Assembly: GCF_900112045.1 (NCBI RefSeq)
Contig: NZ_FOJW01000008.1
Coordinates: forward strand, 62,001 to 126,000
Direction: 5' to 3'
Source: Lentibacillus halodurans
Lineage (GTDB): Bacteria; Bacillota; Bacilli; Bacillales; Amphibacillaceae
Length of the DNA: 64,000 bases
Shown here: in pieces, positions 35,124 through 39,855 of the stretch
Layout of the letters: each line of letters starts with the position of its first letter
Position numbering within the stretch: position 1 is the stretch's first letter
Position numbers and translations under genes: made by a program
Notes under the pieces: generated by a model
The model's input: the letters and a program-made list of their open reading frames with translations, nothing else
What the model was told of the DNA's origin: nothing
Databases searched by the model: none

Positions 35124-36335
35124 ATGAAAAAAATAGTCATCTGGCTGCTGACCACCATTCTGATCCTGACAAGCTGTACACCGTCTATCAACAATGAAGA
35201 TGAAGTTGTTCAAAATGAAGATGAGACACAACAGCAGCAGAACTCGATTGTTTCTAGCCACCAACTATCAGATGAAAATTACCGGACGATTCTGCCCTAT
35301 CGCCCCAGTGCATCCAGGGGCGTTACGACCAATCAGCTTGGAAACAGGGTCGATATTGATGAATTGGAGACAGGCTTAAGAAGGCTTTCTAAAGAATACT
35401 TTGATCCCGAGCAATATTTTTTTGAAGAAGGCCAGTATTTGACGTCTGATATGCTGTATAATTGGCTTGATACGTATCCGACGGACGAACAGCTTAAAAC
35501 ACTCGAGCAAAGAGTGGAAGATGATACTGATTCGTTTAGTGAAGCTGATTTAAATGCGCGCAAGCAGGCCTTAAACCCGCCGCTTGATGAAGACGAAGCA
35601 ACAAAGGAAGATTACGAGAACAATCCGAAATATGTATCCCACATTCTGGAGCAAAATTTTTTAAAGCGGAATGAAGATGATACGGTGGAACTGGTGGGTG
35701 CTTCTATCGGGATAGCGTTAAAGTCAACCTTCACCTATGAGGTTGATGGCAATACCTACCATCGAGATATTTCGCAATCGGAAATGCTGGAAAAAGGAAA
35801 GGAAATTGCCCAAACGGTTCTGGAACGTGTCCGGAACATTGAGGAGCTGAGTGATGTTCCGATTATGATTGCGCTGTACCGGGAAGAAGACCAAAACTCT
35901 CCTGTTCCCGGGAATTATGTAGCTAAAACGGGTGTTGAAGGCGGACAGGCGTCAATAGGCGAATGGGAAACAGTTGACGAGGAAAATGTACTATTCCCAT
36001 CTGATGAAGGCGAAGAAAAATATTACGATACCCAGCAATTAGTCCAAAACTTTGGTTCACGGATTGAAGAGTATTTTCCAAACTATGTGGGTGTAATTGG
36101 CAAAGGCTTTTACAAGGATGAAGAATTGCAAAAATTAACGCTGGAAATCCCGCTGGAGTTTTATGGTAAAGGCGAGGTGATCGGTTTTACACAATATACG
36201 TATGGTCTGGTGGAGGAAATGTTCCAAGATTACTATGACCTGGAAGTCAGAATTACCTCGAACGAAAAAATGGAAAGCTTCATCTATTGGGGAGCAGGTG
36301 ATAATGAAGGGACTGTCCATATTTATGATTCGTAA
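35124..36335 (+). CDS. camS: CamS-family sex-pheromone precursor lipoprotein (YerH)
   Basis: 403 residues. Signal peptide KKIVIWLLTTILILTSC ends in a lipobox. In enterococci and staphylococci the cleaved signal peptide of CamS is the source of a conjugation pheromone; in bacilli no such role is established. The mature part includes VSHILEQNFLKRNEDD and GASIGIALKSTFTY near 187-200 and VGVIGKGFYKDEE near 330. ATG 35124 is eight bases after AGGAG; an upstream in-frame GTG sits inside that site. Last gene of the pcrA-ligA group, followed by a strong terminator. Confidence 0.88.
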   Translation: MKKIVIWLLTTILILTSCTPSINNEDEVVQNEDETQQQQNSIVSSHQLSDENYRTILPYRPSASRGVTTNQLGNRVDIDELETGLRRLSKEYFDPEQYFFEEGQYLTSDMLYNWLDTYPTDEQLKTLEQRVEDDTDSFSEADLNARKQALNPPLDEDEATKEDYENNPKYVSHILEQNFLKRNEDDTVELVGASIGIALKSTFTYEVDGNTYHRDISQSEMLEKGKEIAQTVLERVRNIEELSDVPIMIALYREEDQNSPVPGNYVAKTGVEGGQASIGEWETVDEENVLFPSDEGEEKYYDTQQLVQNFGSRIEEYFPNYVGVIGKGFYKDEELQKLTLEIPLEFYGKGEVIGFTQYTYGLVEEMFQDYYDLEVRITSNEKMESFIYWGAGDNEGTVHIYDS

Positions 36336-36381
36336 ACCTGAAAAAACAATTTAAGTCGATAGACTCAGCACAAAGAAAAAT

Positions 36382-36421
36382 GCCCTTTTTTCACGAAAAA
36401 CAGTGAAAAAAGGGCCATTTT
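36382..36421 (+). terminator. Terminator after camS
   Basis: GCCCTTTTTTCAC and GTGAAAAAAGGGC form a perfect 13-bp stem with an 8-nt loop, followed by CATTTTT. Confidence 0.92.
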
Positions 36422-36587
36422 TAACCGGATTTCCTCATTTCAGGAAAGTTGGCAAGTTTTGGAGGGGTTTATTGCCAATTTTACCCCTCAACTTTCCCAA
36501 TATGAATTTTTGGAATTTATGTTATCATATAAATATAGCATTATTACCAAATCATTCTAAATTTCAGCTAGCGGGGTGGGTAAAAAG

Positions 36588-37856
36588 ATGGAAATCGGAC
36601 CCTATATTAAACTGCACCGCATTCAACAGGAAATGACCCAGGCAGAACTGGCTGAGGGGATTGTCTCCAGCGCTTATTTGTCCAAAATCGAAAATGAGAA
36701 AACCGAAGCAAGCCCAAACGTTATAAGTTTATTATGCACCAGACTTGGTATCCAGCTGGATAATGGAACCGACGAAATGATCAGAGAAAAGCTGCAGGAA
36801 TGGTTTGGCATGCTATCTACAGAAAATGATGAGGAAGAAATCACCCGAACCTATCAGGAATTAAATCAGGTGATGTACAACAATCATTCTGCTGACAGTC
36901 TCGTCATGTTTGAGATTCACAAGATCAAGTATTTTTTAGTCATAAGTGAAATGGACAGCGCATTAAGTCAAATTAATAAACTAGCCGAAATGTCCGGCAC
37001 TTTTGATAGTCTGCATCAGTTTTACTGGTATAAATTTAAAGGAAATTATAATTCGCTTAATTCCGAATTTAATCAGGCGATGCGCATGTATAAAGTTGCT
37101 GAGGAAAAACTGAATCAGGTGGATCTTTCAGAAGAGGAAATTGCTGATTTGCAATATGTAATAGCTGTGACACACAGTAAGCTGCGGAACACGCTTGAGG
37201 CGATTGAATATGCAGAAAAGGCAATCGCCACTTTTCGGACAATATATAATTTTATTCGATGTGCTGAATGTCATATTTTATTGGGCATTTCCTACCGCAG
37301 GATCAGGATGTATGATAAGGCGATAAAAAACTATAACCTTGCCAAACATTTAGGGGAATTGAAACAGCATAAGCATATTATTCAATTGACTAATCAAAAT
37401 TTAGGATATCTATATTCAACGATAGGAGAAACCGAAAAAGCTATTTTTCATTATGAAGAGATCATGAAAGAGGAGAGAATATTATTATTTGAACGGATCC
37501 TTGCAGCTACCTCGCTAATTAAAGAATACCATAGTATTTATAATTTTGATAAGGCTAAAGAAATGGTTGAAATGAGTCAAAGTCTATTGGAAGAAGTCCA
37601 TGACGAAGAAAGGTTTCAGCTATTCTATTACATTACCTATACGTATGATTATGCAATCAATCAGAAAGCCGAAAAGTTTGAATCATTCGTGATTGACGAG
37701 TTTATACCTTACTTAAGGAAACATAAGGATTATGCCAACTTGGTGATTTATGCCAATATGCTGGCACAACATTTTGAAGGGAATAACAGATATAAAGAAT
37801 CTGTTAAATATTACAAAATGGCTAATAGTACTTTTGAAGAACTAGTTAGCCTGTAA
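36588..37856 (+). CDS. HTH-TPR regulator of the RNPP (NprR/PlcR-like) peptide-sensing type
   Basis: 422 residues. Residues 4-60 are an XRE helix-turn-helix (LHRIQQEMTQAELAEGI then SSAYLSKIENEK). From about 85 to the end there are tandem TPR-like helix pairs, for example IEYAEKAIATFRTIYNFIRC and SYRRIRMYDKAIKNYNLAKH, with a final KYYKMANSTFEELV. Size and layout match NprR of the Bacillus cereus group. Such proteins bind a re-imported signal peptide in the TPR groove and then bind DNA. A propeptide gene lies 14 bp downstream. ATG 36588 follows GGGGTGGG; an in-frame GTG at 36576 overlaps it. Target genes are unknown. Confidence 0.85.
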   Translation: MEIGPYIKLHRIQQEMTQAELAEGIVSSAYLSKIENEKTEASPNVISLLCTRLGIQLDNGTDEMIREKLQEWFGMLSTENDEEEITRTYQELNQVMYNNHSADSLVMFEIHKIKYFLVISEMDSALSQINKLAEMSGTFDSLHQFYWYKFKGNYNSLNSEFNQAMRMYKVAEEKLNQVDLSEEEIADLQYVIAVTHSKLRNTLEAIEYAEKAIATFRTIYNFIRCAECHILLGISYRRIRMYDKAIKNYNLAKHLGELKQHKHIIQLTNQNLGYLYSTIGETEKAIFHYEEIMKEERILLFERILAATSLIKEYHSIYNFDKAKEMVEMSQSLLEEVHDEERFQLFYYITYTYDYAINQKAEKFESFVIDEFIPYLRKHKDYANLVIYANMLAQHFEGNNRYKESVKYYKMANSTFEELVSL

Positions 37857-37870
37857 AGGAGGGGGAGAAT

Positions 37871-38011
37871 TTGAAAAAGATAATGGTAACTTTAGCATTT
37901 GGAGCACTTCTTGTAGTGGGATTTGCGGCAGCGCAAGATGCGCCGACGGATTCTGCGATGGAGTGGGAGCCTAAAATCCTTTCAGTAGGTCAGGACGTTA
38001 GTCACTTTTAA
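37871..38011 (+). CDS. Exported signalling propeptide paired with the upstream TPR regulator
   Basis: 46 codons, TTG start, with a very strong AAAGGAGGGGGAGAAT site that begins in the regulator's stop codon. The product opens with KKIMVTLAFGALLVVGFAAA, a Sec signal peptide, then QDAPTDSAMEWEPKILSVGQ and a short DVSHF tail. Size, charged start, hydrophobic core and location directly after an HTH-TPR gene match NprX, PapR and Phr propeptides. The segment PKILSVG loosely resembles the NprX core KPDIVG. The mature peptide is inferred to come from the C-terminal 10-20 residues. Too short and non-ATG, so automatic callers probably miss it. Confidence 0.8.
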   Translation: MKKIMVTLAFGALLVVGFAAAQDAPTDSAMEWEPKILSVGQDVSHF

Positions 38012-38067
38012 TCTAGTTTGAAGCGAAAGATCAGTATTTTTTACCCTATTACTATATGATGTGATTT

Positions 38068-38104
38068 GCCTGAAATAGTGTGGAAAGCTATTTCAGGCTT
38101 TTTT
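38068..38104 (+). terminator. Terminator of the regulator-propeptide unit
   Basis: GCCTGAAATAG and CTATTTCAGGC form a perfect 11-bp stem, followed by six T residues. Confidence 0.93.
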
Positions 38105-38120
38105 CGTTTTCCGGAATTTA

Positions 38121-38136
38121 CATGCAAATTTGCATG
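38121..38136. promoter_or_regulatory. Perfect 16-bp palindrome upstream of the symporter operon
   Basis: CATGCAAATTTGCATG is fully self-complementary, about 50 bp before a TGGTATAAT extended -10 (38181-38189). It may be an operator of a dimeric regulator. No known consensus was matched. Confidence 0.45.
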
Positions 38137-38180
38137 CAGTAAATGTAACAACTTATAATGAACTCAATCAGTGGTACATA

Positions 38181-38189
38181 TGGTATAAT
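38181..38189 (+). promoter_or_regulatory. Extended -10 promoter of the symporter operon
   Basis: TGGTATAAT, a perfect -10 with the TGN extension, 35 bp before the small peptide gene. The -35 region is weak, as often with extended -10 promoters. Confidence 0.6.
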
Positions 38190-38223
38190 AAATGTACAAA
38201 TATTCTGAAAGGAGTGGGTGCAA

Positions 38224-38331
38224 GTGGAGTATGCCATTTCTGGAGCAACATGGCTGTGGATGTTCATTCCGATGCCTGTTGTGATGCTGCTTTCAATTAT
38301 TACATTATTTACGGAAGGGAGGGGAAAGTAA
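38224..38331 (+). CDS. Small membrane peptide abutting the symporter (symporter accessory type)
   Basis: 35 codons starting with GTG, nine bases after AAAGGAG. The product is EYAISGATWLWMFIPMPV then VMLLSIITLFTEGRGK: one hydrophobic segment, probably a single membrane helix. Its TAA ends exactly at the base before the symporter ATG, and its 3' end supplies the symporter's ribosome binding site (GGAGGGGAAAG), so the two are translationally linked. Short one-helix proteins next to SSS-family symporters are known as accessory proteins; direct equivalence here is inferred. It could alternatively be a leader peptide. Confidence 0.7.
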   Translation: MEYAISGATWLWMFIPMPVVMLLSIITLFTEGRGK

Positions 38332-39855
38332 ATGGATCAGGCAACATTGATAACGTTTATTTTGTACGTGATTGGTATACTTGTAATCGGTATCATGATG
38401 TACCGGATGACCAACAATCTATCCGATTATGTTCTAGGCGGCCGTAAATTGCGTCCGGGGGTTGCCGCGTTAAGTGCCGGTGCATCGGATATGAGCGGAT
38501 GGCTGTTGCTGGGGCTTCCGGGGGCTGTTTATGCTGCGGGTCTTGCAGAGGCTTGGATGGCAATAGGTCTGTCTATCGGGGCATATTTGAATTGGCAGAT
38601 TGTCGCAAAACGTCTGCGGGTTTATACAGAGGTTTCCAACAACTCTATTACGATTCCGGACTTTCTTGAAAATCGTTTCAAGGATAACGCTCATATACTC
38701 CGGGTTATTTCGGCACTTGTTATTCTATTGTTTTTTACATTCTATACGTCATCTGGAATGGTGGCTGGAGCAAAATTGTTTGAGGCATCTTTTGGTCTGG
38801 AGTATCAAACAGCATTATGGATTGGAACCATTGTTGTTGTGTCGTATACCTTATTAGGCGGATTTTTAGCGGTAGCCTGGACTGATTTTCTTCAGGGCTC
38901 TTTAATGTTTCTCGCACTAATTGTCGTCCCGATTATTGCGATGAATCAAATTGGCGGCTGGGACGCTGCTGTTCAAGCTGTCGGGGATATCAATCCGGGT
39001 CATTTAGATATGATTGAGGGTGTCGGAATCCTGGCCATCATTTCATCTTTGGCGTGGGGGCTTGGTTATTTCGGACAGCCGCATATTATCGTCAGATTTA
39101 TGGCGTTAAGATCACCGAAAGATGTTCCGAAAGCCCGGTTTATTGGAACGACCTGGATGGTTCTGGGATTATATGGTGCCATATTTACCGGTTTTGTTGG
39201 GTTAGCATTCATCAGTTCGCAGGATGTCAGTGTTCTAGATGAATATGGGATTGCCGTTGTGATGGATAACGGTGTGCAGATGCTGAATGATCCGGAAAAG
39301 ATTTTTATTGCTTTTTCCCAGCTGTTATTCCATCCGGTCATTGCCGGTATACTACTGGCCGCTATTCTTTCAGCGATTATGAGCACAATTGACTCGCAGC
39401 TGCTCGTGTCTTCATCAGCGGTTGCAGAAGACTTTTATAAAGCAATTTTCAGACGAGCGGCAACAGACAAAGAACTCGTATGGGTCGGTCGGATAGCCAC
39501 GCTTATCATCGCATTGATTGCTGCGATTATCGCCATGAATCCGGAGAGCACCGTGCTTGAACTGGTGAGCTATGCCTGGGCAGGATTTGGGGCGGCATTT
39601 GGTCCGACCATTTTACTTGCACTATTTTGGAAAAGATTCACCCGAAATGGCGCGTTTGCAGGTATTTTAGCAGGTGCACTTACTGTCATTGTCTGGGGTG
39701 GATTCCTGTCAGGTGGCATTTTTGACTTGTATGAAATTGCCCCGGGATTCCTGCTTAATCTGATTGTCGCTGTTGCAGTCAGTTTAACAGGCAAGCCTTC
39801 TGCGGGGGTTGAGTCTGAATATGATGAAGCAATTGCAAAGGTGAATGATGTGTGA
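38332..39855 (+). CDS. putP: Sodium/proline symporter (SSS family, PutP/OpuE)
   Basis: 507-residue, about 13-helix sodium:solute symporter. Motifs: YVLGGRKLRPGVAALSAGAS near 33-52 with DMSGWLLLGLPGA, GYFGQPHIIVRFMALRS near 244-260, and LSAIMSTIDSQLLVSSSA near 345-362, the Na+-binding core. These are PutP hallmarks and indicate Na+-coupled proline uptake, for nutrition or as compatible solute. B. subtilis has opuE before gatCAB at the equivalent position, so an osmoprotective role is plausible. Hydroxyproline uptake is also possible. ATG follows GGAGGGGAAAGTAA. Confidence 0.9.
   Translation: MDQATLITFILYVIGILVIGIMMYRMTNNLSDYVLGGRKLRPGVAALSAGASDMSGWLLLGLPGAVYAAGLAEAWMAIGLSIGAYLNWQIVAKRLRVYTEVSNNSITIPDFLENRFKDNAHILRVISALVILLFFTFYTSSGMVAGAKLFEASFGLEYQTALWIGTIVVVSYTLLGGFLAVAWTDFLQGSLMFLALIVVPIIAMNQIGGWDAAVQAVGDINPGHLDMIEGVGILAIISSLAWGLGYFGQPHIIVRFMALRSPKDVPKARFIGTTWMVLGLYGAIFTGFVGLAFISSQDVSVLDEYGIAVVMDNGVQMLNDPEKIFIAFSQLLFHPVIAGILLAAILSAIMSTIDSQLLVSSSAVAEDFYKAIFRRAATDKELVWVGRIATLIIALIAAIIAMNPESTVLELVSYAWAGFGAAFGPTILLALFWKRFTRNGAFAGILAGALTVIVWGGFLSGGIFDLYEIAPGFLLNLIVAVAVSLTGKPSAGVESEYDEAIAKVNDV

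Follow-up and report, generated by a model that had tools for sequence, protein, structure and literature searches.

What is a very short reading frame doing directly behind the gene of an HTH and TPR regulator, and what might the two genes control together? The question is raised by the window analysed here, a stretch of 64,000 nucleotides from Lentibacillus halodurans, in which the two genes (Table 1) lie between a camS-like gene on one side and a putP-like gene on the other (names given from the open reading frames). A preliminary description made from the DNA letters had pointed to a 422-residue HTH-TPR frame, a TTG-start frame of 46 codons 14 nt behind it and a shared terminator, and had proposed a candidate RRNPP receptor-pheromone pair. 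Both frames are present as described, a terminator-like hairpin with a T run lies 3′ of the two of them, and the pairing itself is supported by conservation, purifying selection and covariation between the peptide and the receptor groove. Added to that description below are two operator blocks and an RNA element, likewise conserved, at the 3′ end of the transcript.

Table 1. Features of the operon, with positions counted from the first nucleotide of the window.
Feature	Position	Strand	Basis and remarks
Distal operator GATTTCCTCATTTCAGGAAAGT	36428..36449	.	Upstream of most orthologs
Proximal operator block CAACTTTCCCAATATGAATT	36489..36508	+	Immediately 5′ of the likely promoter
Likely −10 element TATCAT of the operon promoter	36523..36528	+	By-eye reading, inference only
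Receptor/regulator, HTH and TPR, NprR/Rap-like	36588..37856	+	ATG start, 422 aa; Pfam, PDB sequence match, AlphaFold model of a relative
Propeptide gene, Sec-type signal peptide	37871..38011	+	TTG start, 46 codons, product MKKIMVTLAFGALLVVGFAAAQDAPTDSAMEWEPKILSVGQDVSHF
Predicted mature signal EWEPKILS	37961..37984	+	Tandem repeats, NprX alignment, covariation, AlphaFold confidence, translation
Conserved unpaired 3′UTR segment TTTACCCTATTACTATATGAT	38040..38060	+	Predicted pairing with the degU leader
Intrinsic-terminator-like hairpin	38068..38104	+	Loop with GUGUGGAA in the window, then T run; RNAalifold

The receptor and the short gene behind it

The receptor combines an HTH_3 domain at residues 7-58 with TPR families (Pfam), and its best PDB sequence match is NprR (4gpk, E 3.4e-14, residues 61-412). 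In the Foldseek list obtained with the AlphaFold model of a relative, RapI, the best match, and apo NprR come at the top, the first PlcR chain following only in 36th place after Rap and NprR. Of the two layouts that the preliminary description had offered, NprR-NprX is the one that fits, whereas PlcR-PapR makes a poor model, PlcR being about 285 residues long and the receptor here 422, with the long TPR fold of NprR and Rap. In the excerpted text of PMC12700828, PlcR is a five-TPR receptor and NprR and Rap are placed in one clan. The TPR fold is common to this receptor and the Rap-Phr systems, but Rap is without an HTH domain (PMC9765709, as excerpted), whereas the window receptor has one and lacks three Spo0F contact residues.

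The likeness to NprR-NprX of the Bacillus cereus group extends from the receptor of about 420 residues with HTH and TPR parts, and the propeptide just downstream, to an octapeptide with a central proline (SSKPDIVG there, EWEPKILS here) and to the tetramer-interface residues Y223 and F225; by analogy, two-site DNA binding would be expected. When NprR numbering was transferred through the 4gpk alignment, with the offset fixed by the 5dbk chain (A at the presumed Y223 and F225), these two residues were found retained as Y220 and F222 in the window, and kept in 102/102 and 98/102 family loci, respectively. Unlike in NprR, three of the four Spo0F-binding residues are lost: D107, Y118 and E188 are replaced by S101, K112 and I185, with only Y223 kept as Y220, and across the 102 family loci D107 and Y118 are retained in none and E188 in four. 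Because three of the four Spo0F-contact residues are replaced, a phosphatase role is unlikely, and the sporulation-phosphatase function of the NprR type has probably been lost in the window receptor. The set of NprX-binding and stacking residues has changed as well, R126, Y165, W167, H201, N306, D309 and R343 corresponding to S120, S159, F161, K198, E302, L305 and R342, with one of the seven retained.

The short gene is preceded by AAAGGAGGGGG, and its product has the Sec-type start that had been proposed for it, called from charge and hydrophobicity. No family model reached its cut-off on this frame, the nearest NCBIfam models below cut-off being AimP (E 0.0015) and the Phr N-terminus (E 0.17). 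The receptor has matches at E <= 1e-3 in 47 of 60 relatives and at E <= 1e-80 in 99 of the 159 genomes of the family set. Among 120 distinct receptor loci, counted after 22 copies of other loci (L031-L052) had been left out, a short frame that begins like a signal peptide and contains a recognisable core lies downstream of the receptor in 104, at a spacing of 8-30 nt in 101 of them. One of the remaining loci (L107) has a truncated propeptide, and 15 have either none recognised or a broken receptor (L027, L030, L120, L128, L131, L132, L134-L136, L139-L144), a class within which three-frame reading covered only L120, L128, L131, L132, L134-L136, L139 and L141. Within the genus of the window the propeptide is present in 11/11 receptor-bearing genomes; the twelfth genome, G004, has no receptor match at 1e-80 and a single distant match at 1.9e-9. 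The preliminary description had staked the pair on conservation of the short frame in relatives, and these are the counts that bear it out.

Judged from its substitutions, the short frame is evolving as a translated gene under purifying selection. Among eight close relatives its variable sites per codon position number 26/15/41 of 45, and its summed pN/pS is 0.36; the receptor, compared in seven of these relatives, has 0.16. A TPR receptor, here with an N-terminal HTH, beside a propeptide with a Sec-type signal peptide is the arrangement by which RRNPPA systems are recognised, and it is the arrangement found here. NprR has been recorded in Virgibacillus (PMC9765709) and 21 new receptor-propeptide clusters have been obtained by computation (PMC10075063), according to excerpts of both papers; these clusters may include that of the present receptor. 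Given that such pairs have already been listed by computation, the pair in the window varies a known type.

Other receptor loci offer some observations of their own. A group of receptors about 40% identical (L135, L139-L144) has no recognised propeptide, and its members are possible listeners only; a two-block operator at 47-48 nt is kept in six of these seven propeptide-less receptors (L139-L144). Genomes G166-G169 and G172 (loci among L106-L138) carry 3-5 receptors each at E <= 1e-80, mostly with a distinct peptide of their own. The sequence NZ_QWLJ01000010.1 (L051) is titled Roseburia sp., and its propeptide and size (151360) are the same as those of contig C100 of G172, which belongs to this Bacillota family; the name looks wrong.

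The predicted signal and the receptor groove

The preliminary description had noted a short C-terminal tail, PKILSVGQ followed by DVSHF. As the mature peptide, the internal octamer EWEPKILS, within the tail, is likelier than the C-terminal end DVSHF, as judged from tandem repeats in relatives and from alignment with NprX. Cores repeated in tandem include DAEPSIFS (L020, L088), EAEPSIFS (L085, L086, L089), EHEPSIFS (L022) and NVEPSILS (L070), as well as DKHPGVL, present in ten copies in L100, and LDLQPGAF in L124. Such repetition of one core points to an octamer around xxEPSIFS, which is EWEPKILS in the window. This octamer aligns with the NprX octapeptide SSKPDIVG (PMC4970707), of which the heptapeptide SKPDIVG has been confirmed by mass spectrometry (PMC5641580), both statements being taken from excerpts. 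Repeats are on record for 17/17 large NprR propeptides, with up to six copies (PMC9765709), and for RRNPPA propeptides also in PMC11343458, again as excerpted. The window propeptide has a single copy, whereas relatives have 3-10; the latter comprise the loci just named together with L024, L093, L097, L099, L125 and L126, and come from various groups within the family, with one locus from a different family.

In NprR, H201 stacks on the lysine of NprX, and H201, D309 and N306 are named contacts of the peptide, according to the excerpted PMC4970707. The H201 site is K198 in the window receptor, and a glutamate takes the place of the peptide lysine. Peptide cores were assigned by pattern in 104 receptor-peptide pairs, the assignment of group g19 being uncertain, and in these column 201 is lysine in 66 of the 67 pairs whose peptide has glutamate before the proline, compared with 14/37 pairs with other pre-proline letters and 3/15 with histidine. 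The sole peptide with a lysine before the proline pairs with a receptor histidine, like NprX with NprR. On a tree of the 104 receptors, K198 (column 201) ranks first of 371 columns for co-change with the pre-proline residue, with 9 co-changes observed against 2.6 expected (p 2.3e-4, uncorrected for the scan over 371 columns), a result to be read with the knowledge that the column was picked from PMC4970707, yet the pair table had already been seen before the test. Similarly, L305 (NprR D309) ranks first for the peptide position two before the proline (p 7e-4) and E302 (NprR N306) for the position four after it (p 0.02), both again uncorrected, whereas the top columns for the other three peptide positions (N80, L157 and L157) are not named contacts.

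Covariation between the peptide and the TPR groove, which the preliminary description had put forward as a check, is in this way seen at three positions and not at three others, and its suggestion of a separate signal specificity finds support in a peptide code of the system's own. The covariation suggests that the peptide glutamate would face K198, and the two residues offer a testable charge pair. More broadly, the many receptor-peptide pairs with matched changes constitute a natural data set on the evolution of pheromone specificity.

An AlphaFold model is consistent with the same core. The input was the L032 receptor of a relative, read through into its propeptide (23 rows), and the model has a mean pLDDT of 82, with a tail below 50 except at residues 457-464, MEVEPRIF, where no stretch of three or more residues falls below 50 and block means are about 50. 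This local rise in confidence is a hint, not proof, of peptide docking in the groove, because confidence in the tail is about 50 and the model came without coordinates.

Operators upstream of the operon

The receptor gene is preceded by a palindrome and by another block that shares its half-site. The commonest form of the distal operator in the genus is ACTTTCCT-N6-AGGAAAGT, the left half being degenerate in the window. Both blocks occur in 104/119 loci, again with a degenerate left half in several. Of these 104, 80 have a separation of 48-49 nt, 20 one of 58-59 nt and 4 some other distance, so that the distances differ mostly by one helical turn. The variable base of the half-site (C/T) is the same in both blocks at 99/104 loci. 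Residue 28 of the HTH differs between the two half-site types, as do other residues of the HTH region, and shared ancestry therefore contributes to the agreement. The two blocks suggest autoregulation of the operon.

A 57-nt bipartite site is present at the receptor promoter in 11/11 receptor-bearing genomes of the genus. Away from that promoter, the genus scan gave 9 matches against 10 in the reversed control, which we take as chance; one off-promoter match, of 56 nt, is in G004, which is without the receptor. Beyond the receptor promoter our scans, by which weaker sites would be missed, recovered no shared operator site once the tenI sites had been rejected. These near-matches, before tenI-thiO in four species, were considered as receptor targets and rejected because a TPP riboswitch precedes them; they lie just 3′ of the riboswitches and are best read as expression platforms. 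At L150, L151, L153 and L156 an ACTTTCC/GGAAAGT-like palindrome just past the TPP riboswitch before tenI-thiO is probably an expression platform of this kind.

The 3′ element and the degU leader

In an RNAalifold alignment of 62 of 63 loci (L072 excluded), 9 of the 11 pairs of the terminator-like hairpin have changed on both sides. Directly 5′ of the hairpin, a near-invariant TTTACCCTATTAC...ATGAT is common to the 62 aligned loci, and this pre-hairpin stretch is no less conserved than the stem. With up to one mismatch, a search in which more diverged forms would be missed, the element was found in 3/397 genomes of the order, all three at this locus. Viral contigs contained no exact match to it, and Rfam over 36300-38400 gave a single sub-threshold scaRNA match, taken as chance.

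Complementarity to the core of the element recurs in front of degU. When the 12 genus genomes were scanned for the 11-mer complement of this core, 36 matches were obtained. Ten of them fall on the element and another five, from five genomes, sit immediately 5′ of degU; the total is below the 73 of the reversed control, and only the recurrence before degU stands out. We then compared degU leaders from 110 of the 156 genomes having degU by a local antisense score, which replaced RNAduplex on account of over-long duplexes and which rewards G-U pairs. Against the consensus element the median score is 35 in 63 element-bearing genomes, compared with 21 in 23 genomes that have the operon without the element, 26 in 11 with the receptor but no propeptide and 25 in 13 with no receptor at 1e-80. 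G109 was counted as element-less because N hide its propeptide end. The score of G004, 19, is the lowest of its control group; high scores among the control genomes are those of G027 and G168 (40), G155 (35), G033 (34), and G114 and G099 (31).

Cognate leaders fit best, with genus means of 34.65 against 31.41 for leaders of other genera, and none of 20,000 permutations over 18 genera did as well as the cognate pairing. Matched changes in element and leader are seen as ACAGTGATGAA with TTCATCACTGT, TTATGATAGAATC with GATTCTATCATAA and AAATGACAG with CTGTCATTT. The real degU score was reached by shuffled leaders in 179/2560 cases and by windows of the own locus in 142/3240, and the degU leader outscores every control window at 38 of 64 loci; for L015, L018, L094, L095 and L107 at least, all of them element-bearing, the match is at background. 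In the 47 genomes pairing at least 10 of 13 positions, the first of two complementary blocks ends a median of 37 nt upstream of the degU start. Folding of the degU leader with the site blocked left the predicted ribosome-site accessibility essentially unchanged (0.69 to 0.66) and indicated no direction of effect. Base-pairing RNAs derived from 3′UTRs typically have, ahead of the terminator, a conserved segment that stays unpaired and is complementary to the target, and such a segment is found here, with exceptions. Element and degU leader are cognate in their complementarity, the exceptions being those listed, and an effect on degU is what such pairing would predict.

We consider it likely that the locus is a quorum-sensing operon of the NprR kind and that its transcript acts, in addition, on the mRNA of degU. 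In such a system, a two-gene operon of the RRNPPA type with NprR-NprX as its nearest relative, the propeptide would leave the cell by the Sec pathway, be processed outside to a short peptide around EWEPKILS and then be taken up again. It is plausible that the peptide would then occupy the TPR groove with its glutamate towards K198, and that binding would lead to tetramer formation through the retained Y220 and F222. The tetramer may bind both operator blocks from one face of the helix, 5′ of the receptor gene, and control the operon. The segment left unpaired in the 3′ element would form base pairs with the degU leader some 37 nt before the start codon. Through this pairing, which might either raise or lower degU, cell density would pass to the DegU regulon. 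DegU is a regulator of exoenzymes, motility and biofilm.

The degU part of this reading has to be weighed against the possibility that the receptor-peptide pair is real but that one DNA-binding protein recognises both the 3′UTR segment and the degU leader, with no RNA pairing. A co-evolving protein site would likewise yield cognate-specific similarity, and the degU motif does persist in some operon-less genomes. The mispairs, placed in a way that rewards neither GU nor AC, and drawn from related sequences that are not independent, give a divided answer: block 1 has 3 GU, 6 AC and 44 others, with no GU excess, whereas block 2 has 26 GU against 5 AC and 14 others, as RNA pairing would favour. 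Moreover, the complementarity is split between two blocks whose linker differs in length between element and leader, and both segments are non-coding and antisense to each other, one of them directly 5′ of a covarying terminator. We regard two sites of a common protein as an unlikely explanation.

It could also be argued that the receptor is an ordinary NprR ortholog, both phosphatase and activator, with an NprX-like peptide and a 3′ end that is merely a terminator. The layout, the octapeptide register and the tetramer residues would all agree with this, as would the best PDB match, but the replacement of D107, Y118 and E188 throughout nearly all of the family loci would not, and the strong conservation ahead of the hairpin would be needless for a mere terminator; we find it an improbable account. 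Least credible of all, and very improbable, is that the short gene encodes a different sort of small peptide, secreted or in the membrane, and neighbours the receptor by chance. Such a gene might well leave every family model below cut-off, but several groups repeat one core in tandem, which speaks against it, and covariation with groove residues is what would suit a ligand of this receptor.

A second complementarity, to a stretch behind spo0F, would widen the reading of an operon that also acts through its transcript. In 4/11 operon-bearing genomes of the genus (L341, L343, L346, L352) this stretch is complementary to the cognate 3′ element, with scores of 36, 38, 36 and 48 and with 16 perfect pairs in G011; behind spo0F in the remaining seven there is nothing clear. 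All 25 windows taken from the own spo0F locus score lower, but stretches behind spo0F in other species reach these values in 2, 2, 3 and 0 of 10 cases, and cognate specificity is therefore weak. We lean, by a little over an even chance, towards a dual-output device, in which the pair controls its own transcription and the 3′ end, as an RNA acting in trans, has the degU leader as its pairing partner in much of the family and, in these four genomes, the spo0F-downstream stretch as well. If so, the sporulation link of NprR would have moved from protein to RNA.

RRNPPA receptors are known to act as transcription factors or through protein binding, and should a pheromone operon regulate degU by base pairing of its 3′ end, density sensing would gain an RNA output. 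The agr system of Staphylococcus aureus, with its RNAIII, is likewise a quorum-sensing locus that yields a regulatory RNA, here a predicted one; agr has a membrane kinase and a separate, divergent RNA, whereas the RNA proposed here would be the 3′ end of the receptor-pheromone transcript itself. The 3′ element with its degU complementarity also sets the operon apart from NprR-NprX, the excerpted portion of PMC4970707 making no mention of one, and a literature search by titles and the starts of abstracts found no report linking an RRNPP operon with a degU-acting RNA.

Pairing of the 3′UTR with the receptor's own ribosome-binding site was considered as well and rejected, as it follows clades and one motif-bearing clade is without it; GGGTAAA occurs in 9/66 motif-bearing loci against 0/53 motif-less ones, and the looser GGGTA in 39/66 against 3/53. 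One clade (L020, L085, L086, L088, L089), with no clear degU partner, has a conserved 3′UTR stretch of its own, ATTATACTACTACCTACTAAACC.
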